Assembly (NCBI RefSeq): GCF_015356755.1
Contig: NZ_JADFCO010000065.1
Span: 248,001-312,000 of the forward strand
Source: Nonlabens antarcticus
GTDB lineage: Bacteria > Bacteroidota > Bacteroidia > Flavobacteriales > Flavobacteriaceae
Direction of reading: 5' to 3'
DNA length: 64,000 bases
Of the stretch, positions 223-64,000 are shown in pieces (position 1 is the stretch's first letter; every line of letters starts with the position of its first letter). The position numbers were made by a program, and so were the translations under genes. The notes under the pieces were generated by a model. It saw only the letters and a list, made by a program, of their open reading frames with translations, was not told the DNA's origin and made no database searches.

Positions 223-1424
223 GAAAGCAATCTGTCGTTGATCCTGCGACTTCCTATATAACTAGCAATAATTCCCAATACCACAATGGTAGAAAGTGCA
301 ATCAGCACATTGAGCCAGTCCATCGCAAACGGATAAGGAATTCCCGGCGCGATATAAACCCAATTAAAAGTCATCTGTCCATAGACAAAAGCCATTCCTA
401 TCAACAATCCTAAGATGCCGCCTGAAATGGTCATTAAAGATCCTTGAAGGAAGAATATCCTGCGCAGTTGGCCGACTTCGGCACCTAGATCGAGTAAAGT
501 TTTGAGATTTTTCTTCTTGTCAAGAATCATCATAATAATGGATCCCACGACATTGAATAATGCAATAATCAGTACCAAAGTGAATATCAAGTACACCGCT
601 AGATTTTCAGAATTGAGCATTTTATAGAGTGCACCATTCAATTGCAATTTGTTCTTGATCTCAATATCCACGTCAAACAAAGCCTCGATTTCTTTGCGTA
701 CGTCATCTTCCATATTGGGATCTGTAAGCTTTATTTCTAGTGCAGACGCCGTAGTGTCACTATAATTGAGCAAGGTTCTGGCAGCGCTCAATCGCATGAA
801 TATATATTTGTTATCTAACTCTTCATTGACTGAGAACATTCCGGTAGCAATAGCATCTAACGTACTAAACGAGCGGCTCAAGTTCATAACATTGATCGCA
901 TTAGTTCCAGGTCTGGGAACCATTATTTGCATGAAGGCACTGTAATCATTTACAGATATAGATAAATCATCAGCTATTCCTGCGCCTATAATTACTTGTG
1001 GATCATTATCTGTCAACCAGCTGCCGTAAATCAGGATCGAGTCCGGCTCAATGATCTGATCATAATTTTCTGGAACTCCTTTAATGTAAGCGATATCATT
1101 TTTTTCAGAATAGCTCAAGAATGCCTTTTCTTCTATAACCTCAGAAACTACGGCAATTCCAGTAATGTTCTCGAGAGCCCGCTTTCGCGAAAGCGGAATT
1201 TCCAGCGTTTTACCCTGCACGGCAGTTACTTGCAAATCGGGATCAAAATAACCGGTAAATCCGGTGCTGAATTCTTTCAAACCACTGAATCCGGAAAGCA
1301 CGATAAATAGTGCCGCGGTTCCCACGATGGTGATGATAAAACTGAGGATATTGATGATGTTAATGGCGTTCTTGCCATTTTTTGAGACCAGATACCGTCG
1401 CGCTATGTAAAACGAAAAGTTCAC
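207..1424 (-). CDS. FtsX/LolE-type ABC transporter permease
   Basis: A 405-residue inner-membrane protein with the MacB/FtsX/LolC-E layout: one N-terminal membrane helix (about residues 20-45), a long periplasmic domain (about 46-275), then three C-terminal helices (about 280-305, 325-355, 370-395). The start (NFSFYIARRYL) is typical of Bacteroidota LolC/E-like permeases, whose relatives extract lipoproteins from the inner membrane. No ATPase gene is next to it, so the partner must be encoded elsewhere and the substrate is not shown. It lies 1 bp downstream of rbfA and is probably cotranscribed with it. One copy of the iterated 16-bp palindrome (1180-1195) encodes PLSRKR in the periplasmic domain. 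Confidence 0.8.
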   Translation of the reverse strand: MNFSFYIARRYLVSKNGKNAINIINILSFIITIVGTAALFIVLSGFSGLKEFSTGFTGYFDPDLQVTAVQGKTLEIPLSRKRALENITGIAVVSEVIEEKAFLSYSEKNDIAYIKGVPENYDQIIEPDSILIYGSWLTDNDPQVIIGAGIADDLSISVNDYSAFMQIMVPRPGTNAINVMNLSRSFSTLDAIATGMFSVNEELDNKYIFMRLSAARTLLNYSDTTASALEIKLTDPNMEDDVRKEIEALFDVDIEIKNKLQLNGALYKMLNSENLAVYLIFTLVLIIALFNVVGSIIMMILDKKKNLKTLLDLGAEVGQLRRIFFLQGSLMTISGGILGLLIGMAFVYGQMTFNWVYIAPGIPYPFAMDWLNVLIALSTIVVLGIIASYIGSRRINDRLLSQAKL

Positions 1425-1425
1425 T

Positions 1426-1821
1426 CTAGGACTTCTTGCGTCTAGGTAAAATGTCTGGGTTCTCGATAGGATTGTTATGCCCTTTCAACTCTTTGTCAAT
1501 CTGATCCATGTATTCCAGACTGTCATCATTAAAAAACTGAAGCTCTGGCATGCGACGGAACTGGTGACGGACTTTGGCAGCCACATCGTATCGCAACTCA
1601 CTGGTCATTTCTACAATCTCTTCAACTACAGTAGTCGCTTTGTCTGGTGGAAAAACCGACACATAAACTTTAGCATACCCTAAATCTGGTGTCACAGTAA
1701 CTCTAGTGACAGAAACAATCAAATTTTTCACGGCGTTTTCACGCATTTTATCTTGTAAAACCTGAGAAATATCCCCTTGAAGGATCCCAGCAATTTTTTT
1801 CTGACGTTGACTTTCTTCCAT
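1426..1821 (-). CDS. rbfA: Ribosome-binding factor A
   Basis: A 131-residue RbfA, a KH-fold protein that binds the 30S subunit during late 16S rRNA maturation and cold adaptation. Visible family features are the start EESQRQKKIAGILQ, the central VSVTRVTVTPDLGYAKVYVS strand region and the VRHQFRRMPELQFFNDDS segment. A start 18 bp further upstream exists in frame, but the ATG at 1821 is preferred: a -7 box TACCTTTG (complement 1826-1833) ends exactly 4 nt before it, so the longer form would not be transcribed. The mRNA is predicted to be leaderless or nearly so. The permease follows after 1 bp. Confidence 0.92.
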   Translation of the reverse strand: MEESQRQKKIAGILQGDISQVLQDKMRENAVKNLIVSVTRVTVTPDLGYAKVYVSVFPPDKATTVVEEIVEMTSELRYDVAAKVRHQFRRMPELQFFNDDSLEYMDQIDKELKGHNNPIENPDILPRRKKS

Positions 1822-1825
1822 CTTA

Positions 1826-1833
1826 CAAAGGTA
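1826..1833 (-). promoter_or_regulatory. -7 promoter box of rbfA
   Basis: TACCTTTG on the minus strand fits the Bacteroidota -7 consensus TAnnTTTG. It ends 4 nt before the rbfA ATG at 1821, placing the expected transcription start at or next to the start codon. No clear TTG -33 element is seen. Confidence 0.6.
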
Positions 1834-1863
1834 ACTCAAGAAATGATATTATGATGATAATAT

Positions 1864-1974
1864 GGGCGTTACCTCGGCTTAAGCCTCGGTCGGGCTATCT
1901 GCTGCAATCTTTTTCTTTCTACCGCCTAAAAGCGGCAACTAGAAAAGGATTTACGCTACTATCCCTAACGCAAA
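1864..1974 (+). repeat. Structured dispersed repeat, copy A
   Basis: First of three related elements (others: 3334-3442 complement, 24769-24894). The ends form an inverted pair, GCGTTA (1866-1871) with TAACGC (1966-1971). Inside are a GGCTTAAGCC palindrome (1876-1885), an 11-bp stem AATCTTTTTCT (1906-1916) with AGAAAAGGATT (1941-1951), and an apical stem CCGC (1922-1925) with GCGG (1932-1935). Shared blocks among copies are GGGCGT at the start, CGGTCGGGCT in A and B, and CTAC-ATCC-ACGCAA at the end. It may be a small RNA or a REP-like DNA element. It lies in the gap between divergent rbfA and mce. Confidence 0.7.
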
Positions 1975-3528: not shown

Positions 3529-5388
3529 ATGAAAAAAATGTTATTAATGATTACCGCTGGGGTTTTTCTAGCCAGTTGTGGTTCTAATCAAGTTTCTAAA
3601 AAGACGCAAGCCTCTTCTGACAACCCGTACTACTGGCAGCAACATGTCAATTATGATATGGATATAAAAATGGATGTAAATCGCTATCAATATGATGGTA
3701 AGCAGACTCTAGTTTATACAAACAATTCTCCAGAAACACTGGATCGCGTTTATTATCACATGTATTATAATGCGTTCCAGCCAGGAAGTGAAATGGATGT
3801 ACGATCACGCACTATTAATGATCCAGATCGTCGAGTAGGGTCTCGTATTGAAGCGTTAAAGCCTAATGAGCAAGGATTCCTGCATGTGAGTAATATGACT
3901 CAAGATGGAAAAACTCTTTCTCCTATGGAAGAAGGAACTCTTCTTATCGTTCCACTTGCCCAAGCTTTAAAACCTGGACAATCCACAACTTTTGAATTGG
4001 ATTTCAATGGTCAACTTCCTGTACAAATTAGACGTAGTGGTCGTAATAATGCAGAAGGTGTGGCACTTTCTATGACACAGTGGTATCCTAAAATGGTCGA
4101 GTTTGATAAAGATGGATGGAATGCCAGTCCATACATAGGCCGTGAATTTCATGGTGTTTGGGGTGATTTTGATGTTAAAATCACCATAGATAAAGAGTAT
4201 ACGATAGGAGGAACTGGTTACTTACAGAATCCTAAAGAAATAGGACATGGCTATGATACCCCTAATTCTGGTCCAGGAAAAGGAGAAAACGGTATGTTAA
4301 CCTGGCATTTTAAAGCTCCAATGGTGCACGATTTTGCTTGGGGCGCAGATCCTAATTATATACACGATATCTACAAGGGAGCAAATGATGTTGACCTTCA
4401 CTTCTTTTATAAAGACAACGCAGCAATCAAGGATAACTGGAAAAAATTACAACCAGCAACAAACCAGATGTTGGAGTTTTTTAACAAGCATATAGGTCAA
4501 TATCCTTACAAACAATACTCTGTGATTCAAGGCGGTGATGGCGGTATGGAATATGCCATGAGCACATTAATTACTGGCGAGCGCAGTTTTGGAAGTCTTG
4601 CTGGCGTTACTGCACATGAATTTGCACATTCCTGGTTCAACCATGTATTAGCAACTAATGAGCTTAAACATGAGTGGATGGATGAAGGCTTTACTTCCTA
4701 CATTTCTGATGAGGCCATGAACGAGGTATTCAACGAGAACAAGGAAAACCCATCAGCGGGATCTTACAGCGGGTACATCAGACTTGCGACCTCTGGCATT
4801 GAGCAACCACAAACTACCCATGCAGACCGCTATGCACTTAACGGTGCTTATGGGACCAGTGCTTATTCAAAAGGAGCCGTTTTCCTTGCACAGTTAGGTT
4901 ACATTGTAGGTGAAAACGTGCGCGACCAGATCATTAAAGAATATTACAACACTTGGAAATTCAAGCACCCTACACCTAACGATTTTAAACGAGTAGCAGA
5001 GCGCGTGAGTGGTTTTGAATTAGACTGGTACCTTACAGACTGGACCATGACAACAAATACTATCGATTATGCCATTGATGGTGTGCGTACAGAAAATGGA
5101 GCTGCTATGGTATCGCTTTCGCGAAAGGGTCTTATGCCTATGCCACTTGATGTTCAAGTTACCATGACAGATGGCAGCAGCAAAATGTATTACGTTCCAC
5201 TAGAAATGATGTACAATGAAAAAACAGTTCCTACTAACTGGACTGTAGAAAATGACTGGGCCTGGGCTTATCCTACCTACGAGTTTGCTATAGATGGTGT
5301 CGATGCAGCAAGTATTGATAGCATCACTATCGATCCAAAAAATAAAATGGCAGATGTGAATAAGGAAAATAACTTATATACTAAATAA
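3529..5388 (+). CDS. M1 family metallopeptidase, lipoprotein
   Basis: A 619-residue zinc aminopeptidase-like protein. The N terminus is a lipoprotein signal with lipobox LASC (Cys 17), so it is probably anchored to a membrane of the envelope. The zinc site is HEFAH at residues 363-367 with the third ligand Glu 386 in WMDEGF, the exact HExxH-x18-E spacing of M1 enzymes. The usual GxMEN exopeptidase motif reads GGMEY here. It is a single-gene unit followed by a strong terminator. A degenerate copy of the iterated palindrome (5114-5129, 15 of 16 bases) encodes SLSRKG. Peptide substrate is unknown. Confidence 0.92.
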   Translation: MKKMLLMITAGVFLASCGSNQVSKKTQASSDNPYYWQQHVNYDMDIKMDVNRYQYDGKQTLVYTNNSPETLDRVYYHMYYNAFQPGSEMDVRSRTINDPDRRVGSRIEALKPNEQGFLHVSNMTQDGKTLSPMEEGTLLIVPLAQALKPGQSTTFELDFNGQLPVQIRRSGRNNAEGVALSMTQWYPKMVEFDKDGWNASPYIGREFHGVWGDFDVKITIDKEYTIGGTGYLQNPKEIGHGYDTPNSGPGKGENGMLTWHFKAPMVHDFAWGADPNYIHDIYKGANDVDLHFFYKDNAAIKDNWKKLQPATNQMLEFFNKHIGQYPYKQYSVIQGGDGGMEYAMSTLITGERSFGSLAGVTAHEFAHSWFNHVLATNELKHEWMDEGFTSYISDEAMNEVFNENKENPSAGSYSGYIRLATSGIEQPQTTHADRYALNGAYGTSAYSKGAVFLAQLGYIVGENVRDQIIKEYYNTWKFKHPTPNDFKRVAERVSGFELDWYLTDWTMTTNTIDYAIDGVRTENGAAMVSLSRKGLMPMPLDVQVTMTDGSSKMYYVPLEMMYNEKTVPTNWTVENDWAWAYPTYEFAIDGVDAASIDSITIDPKNKMADVNKENNLYTK

Positions 5389-5933: not shown

Positions 5934-7580
5934 ATGAGATCGAGCACCATCAGTATCAAACGCCATATTCTATTACCTATTTTAGGTGCTGGATTCTTCT
6001 TGTCATTAGCGAGCTTTAAAGATGATTTTTTTGAAATCGCAAAACAGATTGAAATATTTACAGAAATGTACAAGCAGCTCAACATGAACTATGTGGATGA
6101 AACTAATCCTGCAGAGCTCATGGATAGTGCGATAAACGGAATGCTATCAGATCTAGATCCCTACACGATATACTGGACAGAACAAGAAGTCGAAAGAGCC
6201 AAGATTAATTCCCGCGGTGAGTTTACTGGAATAGGTGCAAATGTGAGCACTCAGGCAGATAAATTGATTATCATGGAACCTTGGAAAGATTATCCCGCAG
6301 ATAAAGCCGGACTAAAAGCAGGCGATGAGATTATAAAAATTGATGGTACAAGTATTTCAGATTATAAAGATAATGCTGGCGAACTGCTACAAGGATCAGC
6401 AGGAACTGAGGTGAATGTGACCTACATGAGGCAAGGGAAAAAAAATACTGCCACGTTAAAACGAGCTGCCGTAGAAATACAAGCAGTTCCCTTTTTTGAG
6501 ATGGCTACACCAGAAATAGGGTATGTCATCCTATCAAAATTCAACGAGAAAGCTTCTAGAGAAACTAAGGAAGCCATCAAGCAGCTCAAGGAAAAAGGAG
6601 CTAAAAAAATTATTCTGGACTTGCGAGGAAATCCAGGAGGGTTGTTAAGCGAGGCAGTGAACGTTTCTAATCTCTTTATTGAAAAAGATAAATTGATTAC
6701 CAGTACAAAATCTAGCGTGGATAAGTATAATAAAACCTACCTGACTAAACGCAATGCTTATGATGCAGATATCCCTTTAGTGGTTTTGATCAATGGCCGC
6801 AGTGCCAGTGCTAGCGAGATAGTCAGTGGTAGTGTCCAGGATTACGATCGTGGCGTGGTGATAGGAGCCAGAAGCTTTGGTAAAGGACTGGTACAGCGCC
6901 CACAAGAGTTGAGTTATGGAACGCAGGTAAAAATTACAATTTCTAGATATTACACACCCAGCGGTCGCAGTATACAGGCGCTGGATTACTGGAATCGCGA
7001 TACAGATGGTAACGCTGTACGCACAAAAAAGGAAGATTATAAAGCCTATAAAACGGTAAACAGCGGTCGTACCGTTTATGATGGTGGCGGCGTGGATCCA
7101 GACATAAAGCTCCCTAGCGCTGCTTATTCTCCCATCACAACCTCATTATTGCGGGAAAATGCGATTTTTGACTACGCTACAGATTTCTATTATTCACACC
7201 AGTATTCAGACCTTGATAAGATCCAGCTTACAGATGCAGACTTCAATGCATTTGTGGCGTGGATCGAATCTCGCGGCTTTAATTTTGATACAGAAACGGA
7301 GTCCGCTTTTGCGAAAGCTTACAAAACAGCGATCCTTGAAGAGCTGGATGATGATATAACGACCAGTTATAAAGGCATGATGCAATCCATTCAAAATGCT
7401 AAGAAAAAAGACTTACGCGATAAAAAAGCCGAAATCATGAGTTTGCTGACTGATGAAATTGTAAAGAGATACTTCTATAGAGAGGGTCTTTATAATCATC
7501 AACTCAAATATAATGCAGAGATTCAAGCGGCTATTAAAGTTCTCAATAGCCCCACAGAATATCATAAGATTTTAAATTGA
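5934..7580 (+). CDS. S41 C-terminal processing peptidase
   Basis: A 548-residue periplasmic serine protease of the CtpA/Tsp family. An N-terminal hydrophobic segment (about residues 10-25) acts as signal or anchor. A PDZ domain follows (about 85-175, with GEFTGIGANV at its start), then the S41 catalytic domain: nucleophile in NGRSASASEIVSG near residue 293 and general-base Lys in ARSFGKGLVQ near 318. Such enzymes trim the C termini of envelope proteins. It shares 4 bp (ATGA type) with the OmpA-like gene, indicating translational coupling. A degenerate palindrome copy (7304-7319) encodes AFAKA. Confidence 0.93.
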   Translation: MRSSTISIKRHILLPILGAGFFLSLASFKDDFFEIAKQIEIFTEMYKQLNMNYVDETNPAELMDSAINGMLSDLDPYTIYWTEQEVERAKINSRGEFTGIGANVSTQADKLIIMEPWKDYPADKAGLKAGDEIIKIDGTSISDYKDNAGELLQGSAGTEVNVTYMRQGKKNTATLKRAAVEIQAVPFFEMATPEIGYVILSKFNEKASRETKEAIKQLKEKGAKKIILDLRGNPGGLLSEAVNVSNLFIEKDKLITSTKSSVDKYNKTYLTKRNAYDADIPLVVLINGRSASASEIVSGSVQDYDRGVVIGARSFGKGLVQRPQELSYGTQVKITISRYYTPSGRSIQALDYWNRDTDGNAVRTKKEDYKAYKTVNSGRTVYDGGGVDPDIKLPSAAYSPITTSLLRENAIFDYATDFYYSHQYSDLDKIQLTDADFNAFVAWIESRGFNFDTETESAFAKAYKTAILEELDDDITTSYKGMMQSIQNAKKKDLRDKKAEIMSLLTDEIVKRYFYREGLYNHQLKYNAEIQAAIKVLNSPTEYHKILN

Positions 7581-8616: not shown

Positions 8617-8630
8617 TCGTAATATTGCGA
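8617..8630 (+). promoter_or_regulatory. Possible ArsR operator
   Basis: TCGTAATATTGCGA is a nearly perfect inverted repeat (TCG-AATATT-CGA) just ahead of the arsR coding region; its last base is the A of the first possible ATG (8630). An ArsR repressor commonly binds such a site over its own promoter, so autoregulation released by arsenite is inferred. Confidence 0.4.
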
Positions 8631-8635
8631 TGACT

Positions 8636-8968
8636 ATGGGGTTGACTAAAACAGAGCATTTTACTAAGGAGATTAATGCGGTTGCCGCTTTCGCGAAAGC
8701 GGTGGGACATCCAGCCCGGCTGGTCATCATCAAATATCTGTTAGAACGGGAAACCTGTGTTTGTGGAGACTTAGTTAAAGAAATAGGACTTGCCCAACCA
8801 ACGATTTCCCAGCATTTAAAAGCACTTAAGGAAGCCGGTATTATACGCGGCACCGTGGAGGGAGCGAGCATCTGTTATTGCATTAATACTGATAAATGGA
8901 ACATGATGAATCAAGAATTGCGCAAACATTTGATCATAATTCCAAACTTGAAAAGTGATTGCTGCTAA
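8636..8968 (+). CDS. arsR: ArsR-family arsenite-responsive repressor
   Basis: A small winged-helix repressor (110 residues from the ATG at 8636; a start at 8630 is also open but overlaps the putative operator). The core GHPARLVIIKYLL, TCVCGDLVKEIGLAQPTISQHLKAL and GTVEGASICYCI matches the family; the CVC pair lies where arsenic-sensing ArsR proteins bind As(III). Extra cysteines occur at ICYC and as a terminal Cys-Cys. It heads an operon with three arsenic genes, 10 bp before the next. The iterated palindrome (8686-8701) encodes AFAKA just before GHPAR. Confidence 0.9.
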   Translation: MGLTKTEHFTKEINAVAAFAKAVGHPARLVIIKYLLERETCVCGDLVKEIGLAQPTISQHLKALKEAGIIRGTVEGASICYCINTDKWNMMNQELRKHLIIIPNLKSDCC

Positions 8969-13756: not shown

Positions 13757-15967
13757 ATGAGTACAAATAATAAAAAACCAAGTAAGTCTAAGTTTCAAAA
13801 CTTAACTCAGGCAATTACTAATGTCTTTAACACAGACAAGGATAGTATCCTAAATTACAAACAGATTTGTTCAAAGTTAAGTATCACTGATACCAGCGGA
13901 AGAAATCAAGTCATTAAAAAGCTACACCAACTCAAGGCCAAAGGTCAAATTGAAGAAGTAGATAGAGGCAAATTCAAGCTAATAAAAGCCATTGATTACT
14001 ATACCGGGAGAATAGATATAAGCTCTAGAGGTACTGGGTATGTTATCACAACAGAACTTCAGGAAGATATCATGGTACCTCGCAAATCGCTAGGACAAGC
14101 ACTTAACGGTGATGATGTCGAAGTTCACGTTTATCATAGACGTCGTGGTCAGCAACCAGAAGGTGAGATCACCAAAATCATCAAGCGCAACAAAACGGAA
14201 TTTGTAGGAACCATTCAGGTTCATGAGAAATTTGCTTTTGTCAACGTTACAGATCATAAAGTACAAACTGATTTCTTCATACCAGGTAAAATGATCAATG
14301 GCGCAAAAGATGGTCAGGTCGTTTTGGTAGAATTCATCGACTGGAACGATAAGCAAGATTCCCCTACAGGATCTATTAAGGCAGTTCTGGGAGAACCTGG
14401 TGAGCATGATACAGAAATCCACGCGATTTTGGCACAATATGGTTTACCATATGAGTTTCCTGAAGCCGTAGAGAAAGAAGCAAAAAAACTTGATTTCACC
14501 ATATCAGACAACGATATTTCTGTCAGACGTGATATGCGGGACACGCTAACCTATACGATTGATCCTGCAGATGCTAAGGATTTTGATGATGCACTTTCCT
14601 TCAAAAAGATGGAAAACGGTAGCTTTGAAATCGGTATTCATATTGCAGACGTCTCACATTATGTAAGACCTAATACGATTCTGGAAACGGAAGCTTATGA
14701 GCGCGCCACATCGGTTTATCTGGTGGATCGCGTGGTTCCTATGTTGCCAGAAGTACTTTCAAATGGCGTTTGTTCCTTGAATCCCAACGAGGATAAATTG
14801 ACTTTTTCTGCGGTTTTTGAAATGGATGGTAACGGTAAAGTTACTAAAGAATGGTTCGGTCGCACGATTATACATTCAGACCAGCGATTTGCCTATGAAG
14901 AAGCCCAGCATATTATTGAGACTGGAAAAGGGGATATGCCTGAGGATATTTCGCTTTCGCGAAAGCGAACTCAAATCAGCCCTGAAATAGTTGAGGCAAC
15001 TCTAACTTTGGACAGCATTGCAAAGAAAATGCGAGCTGCCCGAATGAAAGCAGGAGCATTAAGCTTTGATAAAACTGAGGTGAAATTTGACCTCAACGAA
15101 AACAGTGAGCCGGTAGGTGTTTTCTTTAAAACATCGAAAGATGCAAATAAACTAATCGAGGAATTCATGTTGCTGGCCAATAAAAAAGTGGCGGCATTTA
15201 TAGGAAAAAGATCTCCTAAACAGACATTTGTTTATCGAATTCACGCAGAGCCTAACGATGAAAAGTTATCTGCCCTCGCACAATTTGTAACGAAATTTGG
15301 TCGTACGTTAGACCTGAGAGATCGCAAAACGATCACGCAATCCCTGAACAAATTACTGGAAGATGTAAAAGGATCCAAGGAGCAAAACATGATCGACACG
15401 CTTGCGATACGAACGATGTCTAAGGCAGAATATTCTACGGAAAACATAGGCCATTACGGTCTAGCATTTGACTATTACACCCACTTTACAAGTCCCATAC
15501 GACGTTATCCCGATGTCATGGTACATCGATTATTACAACATTATCTAGATGGAGGAAAGTCTGTTAATGAGGTAGAAACGATGGAAAAATGTGTGCATTC
15601 TACAGATATGGAAATCCTTGCTACAAAAGCAGAACGAGATTCCATCAAATACATGCAAGTCAAATTCATGAAAGACCATGCTGACGAGGAATTTTTAGGA
15701 GTTATTTCAGGAGCAACCGACTGGGGAATCTACATTGAAATTATCGCCAATAAATGTGAAGGAATGATTCGTCTGGGAGACCTAGACGATGATTCCTATG
15801 AATATGTAGAAGAGGAATTTGCGGTTGTGGGTCGTAAGACTAAAAATGCTTATCGTCTAGGAGATGAGGTTTACGTCAAGGTTAAAAATGCAGATCTTGT
15901 CAAAAAACATCTCGATTTCTGGATGGTAGGAGCCAAGGATAAAGTGGAAGGCAACCAAAAGAAGTAA
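13757..15967 (+). CDS. rnr: Ribonuclease R
   Basis: A 736-residue 3'-5' exoribonuclease of the RNB (RNase II/R) family that degrades structured RNA. Order: N-terminal winged-helix region (about 15-80), cold-shock domains (about 85-225), RNB catalytic domain with the Asp cluster DPADAKDFDDA near residues 270-280 and the closing HFTSPIRRYPDVMVHRLL near 575-595, then a C-terminal S1 domain (about 645-725). Length and order match the family. The iterated palindrome (14952-14967) encodes SLSRKR in the catalytic domain. A TAACTTTA box lies 7 nt before the start. Confidence 0.96.
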   Translation: MSTNNKKPSKSKFQNLTQAITNVFNTDKDSILNYKQICSKLSITDTSGRNQVIKKLHQLKAKGQIEEVDRGKFKLIKAIDYYTGRIDISSRGTGYVITTELQEDIMVPRKSLGQALNGDDVEVHVYHRRRGQQPEGEITKIIKRNKTEFVGTIQVHEKFAFVNVTDHKVQTDFFIPGKMINGAKDGQVVLVEFIDWNDKQDSPTGSIKAVLGEPGEHDTEIHAILAQYGLPYEFPEAVEKEAKKLDFTISDNDISVRRDMRDTLTYTIDPADAKDFDDALSFKKMENGSFEIGIHIADVSHYVRPNTILETEAYERATSVYLVDRVVPMLPEVLSNGVCSLNPNEDKLTFSAVFEMDGNGKVTKEWFGRTIIHSDQRFAYEEAQHIIETGKGDMPEDISLSRKRTQISPEIVEATLTLDSIAKKMRAARMKAGALSFDKTEVKFDLNENSEPVGVFFKTSKDANKLIEEFMLLANKKVAAFIGKRSPKQTFVYRIHAEPNDEKLSALAQFVTKFGRTLDLRDRKTITQSLNKLLEDVKGSKEQNMIDTLAIRTMSKAEYSTENIGHYGLAFDYYTHFTSPIRRYPDVMVHRLLQHYLDGGKSVNEVETMEKCVHSTDMEILATKAERDSIKYMQVKFMKDHADEEFLGVISGATDWGIYIEIIANKCEGMIRLGDLDDDSYEYVEEEFAVVGRKTKNAYRLGDEVYVKVKNADLVKKHLDFWMVGAKDKVEGNQKK

Positions 15968-20643: not shown

Positions 20644-20663
20644 TTCGCTTTCGCGAAAGCGAA
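20644..20663. repeat. Iterated palindrome, the only intergenic copy
   Basis: TTCGCTTTCGCGAAAGCGAA, a perfect 20-bp palindrome 10 bp after glnS. It is one of 17 copies of the CGCTTTCGCGAAAGCG element. It lacks a T-run and has no loop, so it is a poor terminator. Confidence 0.85.
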
Positions 20664-24039: not shown

Positions 24040-24106
24040 ATTGATTTGTTTGAAGATGTCAAGATACAAATCATTAGTCTTAAGTTTAGCTTCTAAATAA
24101 CAATTC

Positions 24107-39089: not shown

Positions 39090-39093
39090 TTCT

Positions 39094-40068: not shown

Positions 40069-40090
40069 CTCACAGTAAAGCTAGAATACA

Positions 40091-40127
40091 AAAAACCCCC
40101 TAGAAACGTAGTTTCTAGGGGGTTTTT
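40091..40127. terminator. Bidirectional terminator between the DUF4837 gene and tatA
   Basis: A perfect 17-bp stem (40091-40107 with 40111-40127) rich in C/G at its base, loop GTA, with A-run and T-run on the two sides. It serves both convergent genes. Confidence 0.93.
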
Positions 40128-40147
40128 CAATAAAATACTTCAACCGG

Positions 40148-40345: not shown

Positions 40346-40367
40346 AATTACATTATTTTAATGGCTT

Positions 40368-40375
40368 CAAAGATA
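40368..40375 (-). promoter_or_regulatory. -7 promoter box of tatA
   Basis: TATCTTTG on the minus strand, exact TAnnTTTG, 22 nt before the ATG at 40345. Confidence 0.6.
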
Positions 40376-40462
40376 CAATAAGACATACAACCTCGATAAC
40401 TCAACATCATAATGTTTAAGTACATGTGTGATACAATCCATGAGCTTCCCCTGCGTTTAATT

Positions 40463-40470
40463 TATATTTG
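40463..40470 (+). promoter_or_regulatory. -7 box of the M23 peptidase gene
   Basis: TATATTTG, exact TAnnTTTG, 9 nt before the ATG at 40480. Confidence 0.55.
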
Positions 40471-40479
40471 TAGAAGGAC

Positions 40480-42842: not shown

Positions 42843-43458
42843 AATGAGGATCATTCATAGATCTTAGGAAACGCATCATTTTGCAATCGTATGCTAAGTT
42901 TAATTTTTTAATACATTGCTGGAAGAAAAATAATCTATGCTATAGAATGATACTTCCTGTAATTATTCGGTTAGGTATTGCTATTATTTAATTCTCAATT
43001 ATCGATTATTTAATGTTGCCGAGGGTTTCTCGATATGAAATCTAAAAAGAATCTATTTAAAAGTTTGCTCAAGGTATACTACAGTTAGCGTATGCTATTC
43101 ACGCTGTATCATATTTTGTGATGAAATAAACTTTTGAGTTGTTTTTTGATATCAGCTTGATGCTCAATTGCATAAATCACCATAGCAGAAGTTCTTAATG
43201 CATAAAATCTTGTGAGCATATCGATTTTTTACTGTACCCCACGCTTATGTTACTCAAAACTTAAAACAACAAAAAATTTAATTAAAGAGCACTAATTCTT
43301 AATGGACAGGTTTTTAAACATAGAATATAAGAAATTATGAATTCATGGGATCTCGCTTAGGATTTTCAATGAATAGGAGAGCAAAGTCGGATTGCGGTAT
43401 TAAAAACCAGAACCATAAACTCTCAACCCATAACTAATCGTCACTAAGCTGATAATAC
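42843..43458. other. Gene-free 0.6-kb interval
   Basis: AT-rich sequence between the GH3-type gene and the DUF6909-like gene. I see no tRNA, no shared repeat, no terminator hairpin and no credible small gene in it. Confidence 0.6.
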
Positions 43459-43466
43459 TATCTTTA
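43459..43466 (+). promoter_or_regulatory. Likely -7 box of the DUF6909-like gene
   Basis: TATCTTTA, a TAnnTTTR variant used by several genes here, 16 nt before the ATG at 43483. Confidence 0.45.
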
Positions 43467-43482
43467 CATAGAAATACATTTT

Positions 43483-46311: not shown

Positions 46312-47154
46312 GTGAAAAAAGTGATGATTACCGGCGCTGGAGGAATGCTGGGAACTACTATTTGCAACGAGTTGAAGGACGTTGAAATGCATGCTTTTAA
46401 AAGCAGAGAACTAGATATTATCTGTGTCCAGCAATTATCTAAAACTATTGCCCGGTTAAAGCCTGATTATATCATCAATTGTGCTGCCTATACCGCAGTA
46501 GATCTAGCAGAATCAAATCCTGAAATTGCCCACAGAATTAATCACCATGCGGTTGAAAAATTAGCTGAATTAGCAGCACAGCATAATGCCACCTTGATCC
46601 ATTTCTCTACGGACTATGTGTTTGATGGAACCGCAAAGACGCCTTATTTGCCGCAAGACAGTACTAATCCTATTAATGTGTATGGGAAAAGCAAACTGCT
46701 GGGAGAACGTGCCATAGAACGTTCTGGGACTAACTATTATATCTTTAGATTGTCGTGGTTGTATGCACCACATGGTAAAAATTTCTTCCGTTGGGTGATG
46801 GAGAATGATCAGGATGAAATGAAGGTGGTTGATAATCAAATAGGTTCCCCTACAAGCGCGTTAGATGTGGCTCAGTTCATTAATCATGTTGTTCATCATG
46901 ATCCAAAGAATTACGGAAGCTATCATTTTACTAATGTAGGGAGCATGAGCTGGTTCGCTTTCGCGAAAGCGATATTAGACAAGACATCTTCATCAAAAAA
47001 GTTATCTCCAACCAATCATTTTAAGACTGCAGCTGTCCGTCCTAATTATAGTGTGATGGACACAACATCAACAGCAGTAACTTTCCAGTATACCATCAAC
47101 TCAACGAGGACAGCATTAGATCATGTTTTAAGAAGTTACAACAGAGATGTTTAA
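46312..47154 (+). CDS. rfbD: dTDP-4-dehydrorhamnose reductase
   Basis: A 280-residue short-chain dehydrogenase that makes dTDP-L-rhamnose. NAD(P)-binding GAGGMLGTTI at the start, DYIINCAAYTAVDLAESN, the STDYVFDG block and the catalytic YxxxK (YGKSK) are present. Start is GTG at 46312. rfbA, rfbB and rfbC are not in the window. The end overlaps the flippase gene by 8 bp. The iterated palindrome (46956-46971) encodes AFAKA. Confidence 0.9.
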   Translation: MKKVMITGAGGMLGTTICNELKDVEMHAFKSRELDIICVQQLSKTIARLKPDYIINCAAYTAVDLAESNPEIAHRINHHAVEKLAELAAQHNATLIHFSTDYVFDGTAKTPYLPQDSTNPINVYGKSKLLGERAIERSGTNYYIFRLSWLYAPHGKNFFRWVMENDQDEMKVVDNQIGSPTSALDVAQFINHVVHHDPKNYGSYHFTNVGSMSWFAFAKAILDKTSSSKKLSPTNHFKTAAVRPNYSVMDTTSTAVTFQYTINSTRTALDHVLRSYNRDV

Positions 47155-51122: not shown

Positions 51123-52177
51123 AATCCCTGTTTCACATTACAGAAGATGTTTCCAGAGCAAGCGGCGGTATTCGTACCGTTGTAAATGATATTCATAAGC
51201 ACTTCCCCAAGTCGACTATTTTGACCACTAATAAGGATAAGCAGGATCAAAACATCACTGCATTTGAGAAAAAGGGACCCTGGTTATATTCGCCTGCATT
51301 GAAAAATCACCTGGAACAACTCCCTGCAAATGCGATGTTTCACCTGCATGGGGTATGGATGCATGCGCAGTATGCCGCAGCCAAAATTGCCTCTCAAAAA
51401 AAGATCCCGTTTATCGTCAGCCCACATGGTATGTATGAACCGTGGTTATGGAAGGATGGGGTGGTAAAGAAGAAATTGTATTTTAAGCTTTTGACAAGTT
51501 CCGCTTTCGCGAAAGCGAACTACATCCACGCCATTACACCTGAAGAAAAAAGCAACTTGCAAAAGCTTTTCCCTAAAAGCAAGATAGTCTGCATCCCAAA
51601 CGCCATTGAAATGCAACCGTTACCCGTCAGAAAACTGGTGGAAAAACCCTATTTCTTGTTCCTGGGAAGGATACACCCTAAAAAAGGAGTACAGCTTTTG
51701 ATAGAAGTATTTTCCATGCTCAAAGAGCTCGACTTTGATCTAAAAATAGCAGGCTCACCTAACGAGTATTCGCGAGAACTAAAACGTAAAGTAAATGGGC
51801 TAAATGATTCTAGAATCCAATTTATAGGCGAGGTACATGGAGCGCAAAAACAACAGCTATATAGAAATGCACATGCATTTGTGGCTCCCAGTTTTTCAGA
51901 AGTTGTGGGAATGGTAAACTTAGAAGCCGCAATGATGGCAACGCCAGTCATCACGACTTTTGAAACCGGCTTACTGAAAGATTGGAACCTGAATGGAGGT
52001 ATTTTGGTACATCCTGATTTTGAGAATCTGAAAGATGCCATCATTCAGGCAGCTCAATGGGAGCAGCCTGAACGAGATGAAAGAGGCTTACAATTAAGGG
52101 AATTTGTAAAGAGAAACTACTCTTGGGAAACCATTTTACCACAATGGACTTCTCTTTATAAATCTATGGTAATATGA
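51119..52177 (+). CDS. GT4-type glycosyltransferase
   Basis: A 352-residue GT-B glycosyltransferase. Donor-binding signs are FLFLGRIHPKKGVQLLIEVF (residues about 178-197) and APSFSEVVGMVNLEAAMMATPVI with the E-x7-E pattern. The acceptor is unknown; likely adds a sugar to the repeat unit. Four-bp overlaps with both neighbours. The iterated palindrome (51502-51517) encodes AFAKA. Confidence 0.9.
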   Translation: MKSLFHITEDVSRASGGIRTVVNDIHKHFPKSTILTTNKDKQDQNITAFEKKGPWLYSPALKNHLEQLPANAMFHLHGVWMHAQYAAAKIASQKKIPFIVSPHGMYEPWLWKDGVVKKKLYFKLLTSSAFAKANYIHAITPEEKSNLQKLFPKSKIVCIPNAIEMQPLPVRKLVEKPYFLFLGRIHPKKGVQLLIEVFSMLKELDFDLKIAGSPNEYSRELKRKVNGLNDSRIQFIGEVHGAQKQQLYRNAHAFVAPSFSEVVGMVNLEAAMMATPVITTFETGLLKDWNLNGGILVHPDFENLKDAIIQAAQWEQPERDERGLQLREFVKRNYSWETILPQWTSLYKSMVI

Positions 52178-54192: not shown

Positions 54193-55413
54193 ATGCAGCT
54201 TCAAGGGAAACACATCACCTTCATAGGTCTCAACTATGCTCCAGAGGATACGGCCATAGGTTTGTATTCTACACAGATGGTGAAAGCTCTTGAATGTGCG
54301 GGAGCGCATGTGGATGTAGTTACCGCAATGCCCTATTATCCACAATGGAAAATCCAGGCACCATATGATCAGGCTGGAAGTTATGTGCTGGAACAACACG
54401 AAAATATCACAGTGTACAGATATAAACAATATGTACCGGCAACGCCCACATTTCTCAAGCGTGTACTGCATATTTTAAGCTTCACCTGGGGCAGCTGGCG
54501 CAACCTCAAAAAAATTGATAAGACAGACCTGGTAATCTCGGTCATTCCGTTCACGACTTCTGCATATTTAGGCAATAGGCATGCGATTAAACATAAAGCC
54601 CCACACTGGATTCACATTCAGGATTTTGAGTTTGATGCAGCGCTGCAGTCGGGTATTTCTGGAACTGGAAAAAAGCAGATATTCAACCAGCTGTTTAAAG
54701 TTGAATCTGGAATACTGAAAAAGGCAGCTAGCGTCAGTACCATCAGCCATTTGATGATTAAAAAACTACAATCAAAGACTAAAACCGCTACCTTTTATTT
54801 ACCCAACTGGATTGATCCAGAAGAAATCAAACCAACTGCATCGCATTACCATCCTTATTTACGCAGTGATAAATTCAAGTTGCTGTATAGCGGCAATGTG
54901 GGAGATAAGCAGGATTGGGAATTTTTTATCGCTTTCGCGAAAGCGATACCACCACAAGAAATCGACATCATCATTGTAGGTGCTGGGGCTAAAATGCAAT
55001 GGCTTAAGAAGCAACTAGAACAGAAAAATATTCACTATTACGACCCAGTACCTTATGGTGATTTATTCTATTTATTATCAAGTGCAGACGCTCACTTCCT
55101 CTTCCAGAAAAACGATGTGATCGATACCGTGATGCCGTCAAAATTATTGGGAATGATGGCCAGCGGGAAGCCCTCGCTAGTTTTAGGAAACAGCGCGTCA
55201 GAAGTCCGATCCGTTTTAGAGTCATCAAATGGCGGCGTGTATCTGTCAGATTATGATGTAAAAATTGCAACAGATTTAATTTTAAAATGGAAAGCAGATC
55301 CACAATTAAGAGTCTTGATAGGAGGGCGGGCGAGATCCTATGTTGTGGAAAAATTTTCAAAAACCCAAATCCTTGACAGCTGGATTAAAAAGCTCGCCGC
55401 TCTGATAGACTAG
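54193..55413 (+). CDS. WcaI-type glycosyltransferase
   Basis: A 406-residue GT4-family glycosyltransferase. ITFIGLNYAPEDTAIGLYSTQMVKAL is the N-terminal signature of the WcaI colanic acid branch; FKLLYSGNVGDKQDWEFFI and DVIDTVMPSKLLGMMASGKPSLV form the donor site. The first ATG (54193) lies 4 bp after the acetyltransferase stop. The iterated palindrome (54930-54945) encodes AFAKA. Confidence 0.9.
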   Translation: MQLQGKHITFIGLNYAPEDTAIGLYSTQMVKALECAGAHVDVVTAMPYYPQWKIQAPYDQAGSYVLEQHENITVYRYKQYVPATPTFLKRVLHILSFTWGSWRNLKKIDKTDLVISVIPFTTSAYLGNRHAIKHKAPHWIHIQDFEFDAALQSGISGTGKKQIFNQLFKVESGILKKAASVSTISHLMIKKLQSKTKTATFYLPNWIDPEEIKPTASHYHPYLRSDKFKLLYSGNVGDKQDWEFFIAFAKAIPPQEIDIIIVGAGAKMQWLKKQLEQKNIHYYDPVPYGDLFYLLSSADAHFLFQKNDVIDTVMPSKLLGMMASGKPSLVLGNSASEVRSVLESSNGGVYLSDYDVKIATDLILKWKADPQLRVLIGGRARSYVVEKFSKTQILDSWIKKLAALID

Positions 55414-57796: not shown

Positions 57797-58572
57797 TGAA
57801 AGTTGTTTCTGTCATTGTGCCCGTTTTTAATAATCGTGAAACCCTTCCTGAAACGCTGGAGAGTATTACAAATCAAGATTATCGTCCGCTTGAAATTATC
57901 ATCGTTGATGATCAAAGTAGTGATGGAAGTTTTGCTTTCGCGAAAGCGGTTGCTCAACAAAATACACAACTAGAGATTAAATTTATAGTTGAGCAAAACC
58001 AAGTAAACAAAGGTGCAGGAGCAACCCGTAACAGAGCTTTAGAGGTCGCCACGGGACGTTATATCGCTTTTCTTGATGCAGACGACCTGTGGAAGCCGCA
58101 AAAATTAAGCACCCAAATAAATGCGCTGCAATCCAGTGGAAGATCTATTTGTTATGCCGCTTACGAGATATTTGAAGAAAATCCGCTAAAATCGATCGCC
58201 ATCCACAAGGTTTTTACAGAATTGACCTATGAAAAGCTTCATAAAACCAATTATTTAGGAAACCTCACAGGAATTTATGACGTCAAAGCGATTGGTAAAG
58301 TCCCGATTTCTGACATGCGCAAGAGACAAGACTGGGCGATGTGGCTGGACGTTTTAAAAAAAGGTGGACCAGCGATAGGAATTCAAGAACCCATGGCCAG
58401 TTATAGATTAGGGGCCGGGCTATCTGCTTCTAAAGTAGATTTGATCAAATATAATTTTGCGGTATATCGGGAACATTTAGGATATGGCTATTTGAAAAGC
58501 TGTTGGTGTCTGTTGCTTTTTTTTTATGAGCAATTTTTTGTGAAGAGTACCATGAAAATTAGAGTTCGTTGA
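57796..58572 (+). CDS. GT2-type glycosyltransferase
   Basis: A 258-residue GT-A glycosyltransferase. VSVIVPVFNNRETLPETLES and IVDDQSSDGSF hold the first conserved Asp residues; GAGATRNRALEVATGRYIAFLDADDLW contains the DxD metal site. The acceptor base region is KRQDWAMWL. It adds a sugar to the lipid-linked unit. Last + strand gene of the locus. A degenerate palindrome copy (57933-57948) encodes AFAKA. Confidence 0.93.
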   Translation: MKVVSVIVPVFNNRETLPETLESITNQDYRPLEIIIVDDQSSDGSFAFAKAVAQQNTQLEIKFIVEQNQVNKGAGATRNRALEVATGRYIAFLDADDLWKPQKLSTQINALQSSGRSICYAAYEIFEENPLKSIAIHKVFTELTYEKLHKTNYLGNLTGIYDVKAIGKVPISDMRKRQDWAMWLDVLKKGGPAIGIQEPMASYRLGAGLSASKVDLIKYNFAVYREHLGYGYLKSCWCLLLFFYEQFFVKSTMKIRVR

Positions 58573-60097: not shown

Positions 60098-61369
60098 ATG
60101 AACGTTTTGATATTAGGAAGCGGCGGCCGTGAGCATGCTTTTGCCAGATCCATTGTTGCCAGTCCATTACTCACTAAATTATTTGTGGCTCCCGGTAACG
60201 CGGGAACCTCACAAATCGCTACAAACCTAGACCTAGCAATAACTAATTTTGAAATGATAAAGGCAACCGTTCTTGAGAAAGATATAACGATTGTTGTTGT
60301 TGGGCCAGAAGCTCCACTAGTAGAAGGAATCTTTGATTACTTCCAGCAGGATGAACAGCTCAAACACGTTAACGTCATAGGTCCATCAAAGCAGGGTGCC
60401 GTATTAGAAGGCTCTAAAGAATTTGCTAAGGAGTTCATGATGCGCAATAAAGTTCCTACCGCAGCATACGAGAGCTTCACTAAAATAAATCTAAAGGCTG
60501 GAATGCAGTTCATAGACAGTTTAAAACCACCTTATGTTCTAAAAGCTGATGGACTTGCAGGTGGGAAAGGAGTACTCATTCTTACAGATGCTGACGAGGC
60601 TAAGGAGTCTCTTGAAGACATGTTGGTTGGAGGAAAATTTGGTGCAGCATCTAATAAAGTGGTTATTGAAGAATTTCTCAACGGGATTGAGATGAGCGTT
60701 TTTGTCCTCACAGATGGTAATAGTTATAAGATATTGCCTAGTGCTAAGGATTACAAGCGCATAGGAGAAGGAGATATGGGCCTAAATACCGGCGGGATGG
60801 GCGCCATTTCCCCTGTGCCTTTTGCAGATGAGGTCTTGATGAAAAAGGTAGAAGATCGAATTATAATCCCTACCGTTGAAGGTCTAAAAAAAGAGAATAT
60901 AACCTATAAGGGATTCATTTTCATCGGCTTAATGATAGTGGATGGCGAGCCCCTCGTTATAGAATACAACGTAAGAATGGGCGACCCAGAAACTGAGGTA
61001 GTTTTGCCGCTTGTTTCTAGTGATTTACTTTCTCACTTCCACGCTTTCGCGAAAGCGGAATTGCACAAGGAAACCCTAACTATTGACGAGAGAAGTGCCG
61101 CGACGGTAATGCTTGTATCTGGGGGCTATCCAGAAGTTTATGATAAAGGAATGGAAATAGAAGGATTGAATGATGTCCATGGAAGTATCATCTTCCACGC
61201 TGGAACTACAGAAAAAGACGGTAAAATCCTGACAGCAGGCGGTCGTGTAATTGCCGTGACTAGTTTAGGTAAAACGTTCCAAGAAGCCACAAAAAAATCC
61301 TATGAAAATATAGAAAAGCTACATTTTGACAGGATGTATTATAGAAAAGATATAGGCTTCGACCTATAA
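60098..61369 (+). CDS. purD: Phosphoribosylamine-glycine ligase
   Basis: A 423-residue ATP-grasp enzyme of purine synthesis that joins phosphoribosylamine and glycine. Signature start VLILGSGGREHAFA, VAPGNAGT, the ATP-grasp block YVLKADGLAGGKGV, VVIEEFLNGIEMSVFVL, GDMGLNTGGMGAISPVPF and GDPETEVVLPLVSSDLL are all present. Length is standard. The iterated palindrome (61042-61057) encodes AFAKA next to DLLSHF. The DUF6341-like gene converges on it, 2 bp away. Confidence 0.97.
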   Translation: MNVLILGSGGREHAFARSIVASPLLTKLFVAPGNAGTSQIATNLDLAITNFEMIKATVLEKDITIVVVGPEAPLVEGIFDYFQQDEQLKHVNVIGPSKQGAVLEGSKEFAKEFMMRNKVPTAAYESFTKINLKAGMQFIDSLKPPYVLKADGLAGGKGVLILTDADEAKESLEDMLVGGKFGAASNKVVIEEFLNGIEMSVFVLTDGNSYKILPSAKDYKRIGEGDMGLNTGGMGAISPVPFADEVLMKKVEDRIIIPTVEGLKKENITYKGFIFIGLMIVDGEPLVIEYNVRMGDPETEVVLPLVSSDLLSHFHAFAKAELHKETLTIDERSAATVMLVSGGYPEVYDKGMEIEGLNDVHGSIIFHAGTTEKDGKILTAGGRVIAVTSLGKTFQEATKKSYENIEKLHFDRMYYRKDIGFDL

Positions 61370-62549: not shown

Positions 62550-62568
62550 TCGCTACTTATAGAAACTT

Positions 62569-62576
62569 TATATTTG
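62569..62576 (+). promoter_or_regulatory. -7 box of the DUF4254 gene
   Basis: TATATTTG, exact TAnnTTTG, 17 nt before the ATG at 62594. Confidence 0.55.
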
Positions 62577-62593
62577 CGTCTTAATTTCCAGAT

Positions 62594-63202
62594 ATGTTCT
62601 CTAAAAAAGCCAATGAAGTTTTCCAGAAAGTCATCAATGATTACCACATTATAAACACGGTAGATCAGGAATTTGATAATAAGTACGATCGCAATACGCA
62701 TTTAATCGAGTATTTATTGTATCGCAAGAGCTGGATAGATACCGTACAATGGCATTATGAAGATATCATACGTGATCCCAATATTGATCCAGTAGCGGCA
62801 CTTACATTGAAGCGGCAGATTGATGCCAGCAATCAGGATAGAACTGATATGGTGGAATATATCGATAGTTACTTTCTAGAAAAATATAAGGATGTGAACG
62901 TTAAGGACAACGCGACAATTAATACAGAAAGTCCAGCCTGGGTAGTCGATCGACTGTCTATTCTCGCACTTAAGGTATTCCACATGGAAGAGGAGGCAAG
63001 TCGTCAAGATGCTAGTGAATCTCACAAAGTTGCCTGTCAGAAAAAGCTAGATATCCTGCTGGAACAGCGCATTGATCTATCAACAGCACTTGATCAATTG
63101 TTAGAAGATATTTCTACAGGTGAAAAATACATGAAAGTCTACAAGCAGATGAAAATGTATAACGATGACGAGCTCAATCCAGTCTTGCGTTCCAGGAAAT
63201 AA
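62594..63202 (+). CDS. DUF4254 protein
   Basis: A 202-residue all-helical soluble protein of the DUF4254 family: ANEVFQKVINDYHI, HLIEYLLYRKSWIDTVQWHYEDIIRDP, LKRQIDASNQDRTDMVEYID, and a C-terminal AxxKLDILLEQR-like helix. Such genes sit next to GT9 genes in Bacteroidota, as here (1-bp gap), which suggests a link to lipopolysaccharide core assembly; the biochemical role is not known. Confidence 0.85.
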   Translation: MFSKKANEVFQKVINDYHIINTVDQEFDNKYDRNTHLIEYLLYRKSWIDTVQWHYEDIIRDPNIDPVAALTLKRQIDASNQDRTDMVEYIDSYFLEKYKDVNVKDNATINTESPAWVVDRLSILALKVFHMEEEASRQDASESHKVACQKKLDILLEQRIDLSTALDQLLEDISTGEKYMKVYKQMKMYNDDELNPVLRSRK

Positions 63203-63203
63203 A

Positions 63204-64000
63204 ATGCAACAGCCACAGCGAGTTTTAGTAATGCGTTTGAGTGCGATGGGTGATGTGGCGATGACCATACCGGTGTTGCTTGCATTGCGTAGAGTTTATT
63301 CGGATCTGGAAATAAGTTCGCTTTCGCGAAAGCGGTTTTTTCCCATCATCCAGCAAGTTCCTGGAATCTCTATCATCGAGGCAAAAGTTGACAAACAACA
63401 TAAGGGAATATTGGGACTGCGTCGCTTAGCAATTGAAATCAGCAATAAGAAAATTGATGCCGTAGCAGATGTGCACAATGTATTGCGTACAAAAGTATTG
63501 AGAGCATTCTTGCCGGGCACTCGTAAAGCTGTGATAGATAAAGGGAGAAGAGAGAAAAAAAAACTCATCAACGACTCTGATTATTTTCAGCAACTTAAAC
63601 TTACCACACAACGTTATGCTGACGTTTTTGAGCAATTAGGATTGCCTATCGAGCTCACTCCCGTAGATATATTGCCACGTCTCCCCATTCCTAAAAAAGT
63701 CCACAGCCTAGTAGGTGACCATCAACACCGGTGGATAGGAATTGCTCCTTTTGCAGCGCATAAATATAAATCTCTGACTCCTAAAAAAGCTAAAGCACTA
63801 GTTCAAGCTATTCTTGAGGTGGAGAATGTAAAGATTGTTCTCTTAGGCGGAGGATCAAAGGAAGCTAAGCAGCTGGAAATAGTTGCGGGTACTAGTTCTA
63901 ATGTGTTCAATCTTGCTGGATTTATGAGTTTTGAAGAAGAACTTGCGATGATATCAAACCTTGATGCGATGATTTCCATGGATAGCGGCAACGGTCATTT
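63204..64000 (+). CDS. GT9 family (heptosyltransferase-like) glycosyltransferase, start only
   Basis: The first 265 codons of a gene that runs past the window end. RVLVMRLSAMGDVAMTIPVLLALRRVY is the GT9 N-terminal signature (R-x-x-G-D pattern as in WaaF/WaaC), followed by DAVADVHNVLRT, IGIAPFAAHKYKSL, KIVLLGGGSKEAKQLE and the donor-site stretch FNLAGFMSFEEELAMISNLDAMISMDSGNGH. It likely adds a heptose-like sugar to the LPS core. It is coupled to the DUF4254 gene. The iterated palindrome (63319-63334) encodes SLSRKR. Confidence 0.9.
   Translation, partial: MQQPQRVLVMRLSAMGDVAMTIPVLLALRRVYSDLEISSLSRKRFFPIIQQVPGISIIEAKVDKQHKGILGLRRLAIEISNKKIDAVADVHNVLRTKVLRAFLPGTRKAVIDKGRREKKKLINDSDYFQQLKLTTQRYADVFEQLGLPIELTPVDILPRLPIPKKVHSLVGDHQHRWIGIAPFAAHKYKSLTPKKAKALVQAILEVENVKIVLLGGGSKEAKQLEIVAGTSSNVFNLAGFMSFEEELAMISNLDAMISMDSGNGH

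Follow-up and report, generated by a model that had tools for sequence, protein, structure and literature searches.

The window examined here is a stretch of 64,000 nucleotides from Nonlabens antarcticus (NZ_JADFCO010000065.1, positions 248,001 to 312,000), which is part of a 672-kb contig in a genome of 3.27 Mb (G000), and it contains a palindromic word of at least 16 bp that is repeated 17 times, as 14 exact and 3 near copies. The near copies at 5114 and 57933 carry one change each and that at 7304 carries two, so that all positions and mismatch classes given in the initial annotation were correct. In 100 shuffles, the mean number of copies was 0.13 and the maximum 2, in agreement with its estimate that far less than one copy would be expected by chance. 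Equally correct were the readings within genes, which are AFAKA in 11 copies, LSRK in 4 and RFRES in 1, with the copy at 20646 as the sole intergenic one. Pfam scans of the 16 copy-bearing genes (ArsR, S41, GltX, DUF4175, SLT/LysM of the MltD-like type, GH3, RmlD, glycosyltransferases and PurD among them) also agreed with the gene names that had been proposed. The copies are as follows:

1180..1195, exact copy in an FtsX-domain permease gene (207-1424, minus strand), read as LSRK
5114..5129, copy with one change in an M1 peptidase gene (3529-5388), read as LSRK; the identical variant is present in G019 and G004
7304..7319, degenerate copy with two changes in an S41 protease gene, read as AFAKA; exact in G019, G020, G004 and Dokdonia sinensis
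8686..8701, exact copy in an ArsR-family gene (8630-8968), read as AFAKA
14952..14967, exact copy in an RNase R-like (RNB) gene (13757-15967), read as LSRK
20646..20661, exact intergenic copy with the left flank AGTT; exact in G019, G020 and G004
25832..25847, exact copy in gltX (25412-26926, minus strand), read as AFAKA
28926..28941, exact copy in a DUF4175 gene (27892-31425), read as AFAKA
38711..38726, exact copy in an SLT/LysM (MltD-like) gene, read as AFAKA
41471..41486, exact copy in a GH3-family gene, read as AFAKAH
44572..44587, exact copy in a DUF6909 gene, read as RFRES
46956..46971, exact copy in an RmlD-like gene, read as AFAKA
51502..51517, exact copy in a group 1 glycosyltransferase gene, read as AFAKA
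54930..54945, exact copy in a glycosyltransferase gene, read as AFAKA
57933..57948, copy with one change in a family 2 glycosyltransferase gene, read as AFAKA; exact in G019, G020 and G004
61042..61057, exact copy in purD, read as AFAKA
63319..63334, exact copy in a family 9 glycosyltransferase gene that is open at the window end, read as LSRK

The observation is real and genome-wide. There were 480 exact copies in G000, compared with 0 for the reversed control word, and the resulting mean spacing of about 6.8 kb indicates that the spacing of about 4 kb noted initially is true of the window, which is locally dense, and not of the genome. In a search of 148 genomes, all 23 Nonlabens genomes, including that of the window, carried 180-737 exact copies, whereas 119 of the other 125 carried none and the remaining six carried 1-11. 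Among 397 sampled genomes of the family, 48 had at least one exact copy, and high counts were confined to a few genera, namely Nonlabens (448-579 in the four genomes drawn), Dokdonia sinensis (G286, the one Dokdonia species identified in the sample; 630) and genus g224 (G270; 153), with 13 or fewer in the others. The counts of the 12-bp core were 586-685, 917 and 445, respectively, compared with 21 or fewer in the other 391 genomes, and the difference between the core and exact counts in G270 represents a dialect in which the outermost base pair is relaxed. Among the 80 of 107 stretches listed from GTDB contigs, 63 were from Nonlabens or Dokdonia, 4 from BBFL7 and 13 from others. Furthermore, 464 kb of G000 contained 76 exact copies and 23, 8, 8 and 16 copies with one to four mismatches, whereas 20 scrambled palindromes gave, when pooled over the same DNA, 0, 1, 1 and 42 at zero to three mismatches. 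Synonymous codon shuffles within genes gave a mean of 0.35 and a maximum of 3 (100 shuffles) for G000, in which 55 copies lie in open reading frames (ORFs), and means of 0.33 versus 61 copies for G019, another Nonlabens genome, 0.05 versus 15 for G270 and 0 versus 8 for G286. Although the AFAKA frame was favoured among in-gene copies (33 of 55 in G000 and 45 of 61 in G019), three frames were in use. In 17 pieces (17-20 kb) from other genera, no comparable palindrome was found except for CACGTG words, although rarer words would escape such a sample. Among the matches listed from the open-licence PubMed Central (PMC) literature, no paper dealt with the motif, and only its 10-bp core string occurs, in unrelated titles.

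The true extent of the word was determined using 944 kb of two genomes, in which ORFs of at least 80 aa were considered, so that shorter genes count as intergenic, and 7 of 179 exact copies were left out because they lay at a stretch end, at a gene edge or in an unbounded interval. As a result, 172 exact copies were counted, 56 in 88 kb between ORFs and 116 in ORFs, and the intergenic density was about 4.7-fold above the genic one. The description of the word as nearly always inside genes is therefore true of the window only, and in the larger samples 21 of 76 exact copies in G000 and 42 of 103 in G019 were outside such ORFs. The intergenic copies also showed preferences for T at -1 (80%), T at -2 (86%), T or G at -3 (89%) and A at -4 (65%), which extend the palindrome from the 16 bp originally assigned to 24 bp, AKTTCGCTTTCGCGAAAGCGAAMT, and weak symmetric preferences, including one for T at -11 and -12, reached about -12. 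Similar flanks were observed in Dokdonia sinensis and weaker ones in G270. Single mismatches (n=57), tallied in about 1 Mb of Nonlabens DNA with orthologous stretches included, fell at folded position 0 in 34 cases, at 1 in 7, at 5 in 8 and at 6 in 8, and none fell at 2, 3, 4 or 7. As a single strand, the 24-mer was predicted to form a stable hairpin (-9.3 kcal/mol, z -3.3), whereas the 16-mer alone was unexceptional (z -0.9). Gene orientation had little effect, with an intergenic density of 0.53-0.78 per kb across the four classes. A bidirectional terminator is designed with the flanks arranged in reverse to T on the left and A on the right, and a terminator role was rejected on the grounds of the like density in the four orientations and of flanks that are T-rich on the left and A-rich on the right.

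The copies were also not randomly spaced at short range. Only 1 of 93 core gaps in G000 and 5 of 100 in G019 were shorter than 1 kb (20% and 24% expected if random), whereas 60% and 69%, respectively, were at 2-5 kb (32% and 34% expected). Gaps shorter than 1 kb were likewise absent in G270 (0 of 31, p 0.004) and G286 (0 of 15, p 0.04), with no excess at 2-5 kb in either. The counts in G019 were under-dispersed, with 2-6 copies in each of 24 stretches of 20 kb, four of which were adjacent (variance/mean 0.39).

The conservation of the word in place was assessed in alignments of the window with stretches from 18 other Nonlabens genomes (69-75% identity), with coverage much beyond 20 kb for G019, G020 and G004 only. 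At the 16 window sites with at most one mismatch, 72 of 104 site-by-genome readings, which are not independent of each other, were exact and 94 were within one mismatch, whereas only 0.4-2.1% of background 16-mers in the same alignments were identical and 2.8-9.0% were within one mismatch. In the reverse comparison, 38 exact sites of G019, G020 and G004 could be aligned to the window, where 31 of them were exact and 34 were within one mismatch.

Four sites were also traced in Dokdonia sinensis, g224 and g110 and in as many as 15 additional genera. At 25832 in gltX, 11 of 17 Nonlabens orthologues were exact and the other 6 had one mismatch, whereas the word was absent from all 17 non-Nonlabens orthologues, 12 of which aligned without gaps at 9-14 mismatches and 5 of which had a gap of 1-4 residues. 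The site at 28926 in the DUF4175 gene was exact in 15 of 18 Nonlabens orthologues, with one mismatch in the other 3, and absent from all 19 others. At 38711 in the SLT/LysM gene, 13 of 18 Nonlabens orthologues were exact, and the AFAKA residues were partly shared outside the genus, in Dokdonia sinensis (3 mismatches), g224 (1), G031 (4) and G080 (3). At 41471 in the GH3 gene, 10 of 16 Nonlabens orthologues were exact, and the carriers read F-A-K-A-H, whereas all 16 non-Nonlabens orthologues read F-G-x-D-H. The AFAKA residues were thus absent in other genera at three of the four sites, and with the codon-shuffled counts given above, the two findings named in advance as contrary to it failed to occur for the proposal that unrelated proteins share this string because of the DNA. 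Across the four sites, 64 of 69 non-Nonlabens readings were gapless and the other five, all in gltX, were short by 1-4 residues. From these orthologous alignments, the copies apparently arose by substitution, which is the most likely origin of the word.

With regard to the number of origins, a tree of 8 window proteins grouped Dokdonia sinensis with g224 (support 1.0) and separated both from Nonlabens by non-carrier genera at weak support (0.61 and 0.80), and it is therefore compatible both with one origin followed by losses and with two origins. Among 55 Dokdonia and g224 sites with at most one mismatch, 8 were without a usable ORF and 27 were without a match in the sampled Nonlabens DNA. The remaining 20 could be aligned, some of them to distant homologues (27-41% identity), and 3 were shared within one mismatch and one further site at two mismatches. 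One shared site lies in a gene that we take to be pgk. There, other genera have an FAK or FAE core without the word and without gaps, so that convergence is possible.

DNA that the carriers may have acquired recently, or that holds the word outside them, gave a mixed picture. A word-free gap of 53 kb is present in G000 (C58, about 45.6-98.9 kb, parts of L161-L163). Annotation of 20 kb of this gap (L162, in which 8 of 10 larger ORFs were scanned) revealed genes for bacteriophage exclusion (BREX) proteins, namely BrxL, PglZ, BrxC and an Eco57I-type methylase. The same stretch also encodes an OLD-like ATPase and a UvrD-like helicase. The closely related Nonlabens phages P12024S and P12024L contained no core within two mismatches, compared with 1.4 and 1.3 expected by chance and about 7 at the density of the host. 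The word was found, on the other hand, in 13 stretches from 11 genomes of non-carrier genera, and 12 of these (L169-L173, L175-L181) were alike, with common copy spacings of 933, 2446 or 3460 bp. One of them, L169, encodes CusA/CzcA-like, TolC-like, multicopper oxidase and P-type ATPase proteins, named by reading the translations, and these related metal islands are perhaps DNA passed on from a carrier genus. A plasmid search with one motif-bearing stretch gave no match. The word was also found in 41 viral stretches, of which 10 (8 contigs) form one group, 17 (11 contigs) form a second and 14 are unlike these, several of the last being G+C-rich and their copies perhaps due to chance. The two groups are as follows:

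Peternella-like group: L111, L112, L117, L124, L128, L134, L139, L141, L145, L148
Siphophage/integrase group: L113, L116, L118, L119, L121-L123, L125, L126, L129, L133, L135-L138, L140, L147

The terminase of the first group is nearest that of Winogradskyella phage Peternella_1 (54.5%), which is presumably Mu-like in nature, and the second group has siphophage head genes and an integrase. In both, the word is inside terminase, portal, HNH or other genes, and the word densities are inflated because the pieces were picked for holding it. Both are probably groups of flavobacterial phages, with a putative temperate lifestyle.

Taken together, these results would be explained if the word is one of genus-level DNA self-recognition that is maintained by drive, most likely a DNA uptake sequence with a pilus-independent reader, an explanation for which we find belief and doubt evenly balanced. 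Of the four functions that the initial annotation had suggested, DNA uptake was the best-fitting, although as an inferred role, and nucleoid organisation is retained as a rival. The DNA-binding component of the uptake system would bind a symmetric site, and alleles bearing the word would enter and recombine more often, so that near-matches at permissive places would become exact by substitution and then be held. A second copy within about 1 kb would add little, being on the same fragment, and this could be the reason for the observed scarcity of short gaps. DNA new to the lineage would lack the word and gain it with residence, as suggested by its absence from the BREX island and the two phages and its presence in the metal islands and the probable temperate phages. 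Placement appears permissive, in that the word is denser between genes and favours the AFAKA frame, yet at 41471 it replaces conserved residues. Since there are hundreds of redundant sites and most are nevertheless kept nearly to the base, one of them on residues conserved elsewhere, biased transmission is suggested, and the site at 41471 would suit drive better than selection on each site. Substitution, exactness and conservation in place are seen in the samples, biased uptake would be their cause, and the step from molecular drive to uptake is one that we infer.

A comparison with known systems is consistent with this explanation in several respects. The DNA uptake sequences (DUS) of Neisseriaceae and the uptake signal sequences (USS) of Pasteurellaceae likewise amount to hundreds to thousands of copies of one word. 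The DNA uptake enhancing sequences of H. influenzae have a core plus weaker flanks, as described in part of PMC1939737, and the neisserial DUS, in the cited part of PMC2397512, are highly conserved, occupy permissive sites in core genes, are absent from recent genes and have a spacing like that of conversion fragments. Their spacing is 1.1-1.5 kb in Neisseria (the same part of PMC2397512), compared with a median near 3-4 kb in Nonlabens. An even spacing of uptake sequences was reported as significant by Karlin et al., whereas PMC1939737, in the portion cited, deems it less even than compaction needs. The Nonlabens word differs from DUS and USS in being in Bacteroidota, where the pilus and type II secretion system platform gene (T2SSF, PF00482) is absent in 12 of 13 carriers. 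Riemerella, called a member of Flavobacteriaceae, is naturally competent without pilus homologues (PMC8459023, in part), and R. columbina prefers its own DNA, the k-mers listed in the cited part of PMC7965970 being only A/T-rich and up to 10 bp, so that uptake is possible in Nonlabens.

Several points weigh against an uptake sequence. Known DUS and USS are not palindromes but have an asymmetric 9-10 bp core within a longer consensus, whereas the Nonlabens word is a palindrome of 24 bp. A known pilus-based DUS reading is inapplicable because T2SSF, present in 1 of 13 carriers and 4 of 29 other genomes, is absent from the remaining 12 motif-rich ones, and a type IV pilus reader was rejected on this ground. 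ComEC was present in 34 of 34 genomes, and neither it nor its neighbourhood differed between motif-rich and other genera, so that no part of the machinery yet tracks the motif. No receptor or reader protein was found among ComEC, PF00482, three methylase families and ParB_N. F. johnsoniae was, in the source passage, not competent under the R. columbina conditions, and no competence experiment in Nonlabens or Dokdonia was met in the literature search. The word is much less exact in G270, with 17 exact, 24 one-, 18 two- and 17 three-mismatch copies in 380 kb. The overall coefficient of variation of the gaps is not below chance (1.07 versus 1.03), owing to the occurrence of long gaps. The comparison of positions is confined to a single 64-kb region and has non-independent cells, and positions are not always kept, the site at 41471 having 3-7 mismatches in 5 of 16 Nonlabens orthologues. 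The D-to-A change at this site is not confined to carriers, because five wordless Nonlabens have FGKAH or FAQAH. The evidence from motif-free islands amounts to 20 kb of annotated DNA in one island, and the temperate-looking viral contigs carry copies, which uptake drive permits but does not predict.

The genes around comEC were the same in carriers and non-carriers, and the neighbourhood was accordingly rejected as a discriminator. These neighbours include a gene for a DNA/RNA non-specific endonuclease, which had no match in the G156 stretch. ComEC itself diverges fast among Nonlabens, with 48-60% identity to that of G019, whereas its neighbours LpxB and SurE have 77-92% (L291, L292, L298).

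The serious rival, which we nevertheless consider unlikely, is that the word is a site bound every few kb by a chromosome-organising protein (for the nucleoid, segregation or supercoil domains) and kept by ordinary selection. The long symmetric word with its weak flanks resembles the footprint of a dimer, short gaps are scarce, every sampled 20-kb stretch of G019 holds copies, and so do the temperate-looking viral contigs. However, about 450-900 redundant sites should make the loss of any single site of little consequence, but most places are retained, and a word-free stretch of 53 kb is tolerated. The sites of parS and Noc are palindromes of 16 bp with TTTC...GAAA half-sites, bound by ParB-family proteins. 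The Nonlabens word is like them in its 16-bp palindrome and in these half-sites, but the half-sites are 2 bp closer, there are hundreds of sites and no ParB paralogue tracks them. ParB_N was single-copy in 14 of 16 motif-rich genomes and the extras were frames of about 600 aa in G000 and G019, so that no Noc-like paralogue was evident, in a search that did not extend to other candidate families. A ParB/Noc reading was rejected in that these extra proteins do not follow the motif and that other genera have recurrent parS-like words in the homologous region.

A role like that of the highly iterated palindrome HIP1 of cyanobacteria (GCGATCGC) appears improbable. In this case, an orphan methyltransferase would act on an inner palindrome (such as TCGCGA or CGCG), and methylation-linked repair would create and keep the word. 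Like HIP1 and the alternate HIPs, the Nonlabens word is an iterated palindrome whose symmetric single mismatches are mainly outermost (34 of 57), as described for HIP1 in part of PMC4390886. It is less dense, at about 0.15-0.25 per kb versus 0.3-2.7 per kb in most cyanobacteria (PMC4390886 Table 2, the portion cited), and its conserved unit of 16-24 bp is longer than the 8-10 bp of HIP1 and far beyond a type II site. Moreover, no methylase is universal among the three families tested in 16 motif-rich genomes, where PF01555 was over the cut-off in 10 (barely so in G002, with a stop inside), PF00145 in 9 and PF02086 in 4, and Nonlabens G010 had none of the three. The methylation role suggested initially is thus disfavoured and was rejected for these three families, HsdM and Eco57I not having been searched genome-wide. 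Still less probable is a self-inserting mobile mini-element or a repeat similar to the repetitive extragenic palindromes (REP). Like REP, the word has many palindromic copies per genome, with inverted symmetry and a stable 24-mer hairpin, and it is present in islands of other genera. Yet REP are extragenic and tied to tyrosine transposases (part of PMC2817692), whereas 116 of 172 Nonlabens copies are in ORFs and fixed at the same orthologous places, the gapless readings at the four sites and at the pgk site contradict insertion, and the copies in other genera sit in a shared island with conserved spacing. We give virtually no credence to an effect of codon usage or of a recurrent AFAKA peptide. 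The favoured AFAKA frame would agree with it, but codon shuffles account for 0.33-0.35 copies versus 55 and 61, three frames are used, and 56 exact intergenic copies carry the longer word.

A fuller form of the uptake explanation, which we propose tentatively and with somewhat more doubt than belief, is that the word would be the first DNA uptake sequence from Bacteroidota and also the first to take the form of a long perfect palindrome, read by a pilus-independent machine of the Riemerella type, with a drive that alters conserved residues and a mark of the donor left on islands. In the cited parts of the literature, Pasteurellaceae and Neisseriaceae are the only families for which uptake sequences are described. 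A long symmetric word that has stayed in place over deep divergence could be a handle on the receptor, usable directly as bait, and at each site the opposing effects of molecular drive and protein selection could be measured. DNA once resident in carrier genera may also be marked by the word, so that transfers could be traced, as the metal islands suggest.

The region homologous to window positions 24001-44000 showed other repeated words. Words of the CACGTG family, which we take to be parS-like, recur there in many non-carrier genera (L216-L231), and TCCACGTGGA was present twice in 8 of 17 pieces; this region may therefore adjoin a ParB loading zone. In the same region, G002 (L188) and G010 (L191) contained short repeats such as TACCACATACCA (7 times) and CCACATTCCACA (14 times).

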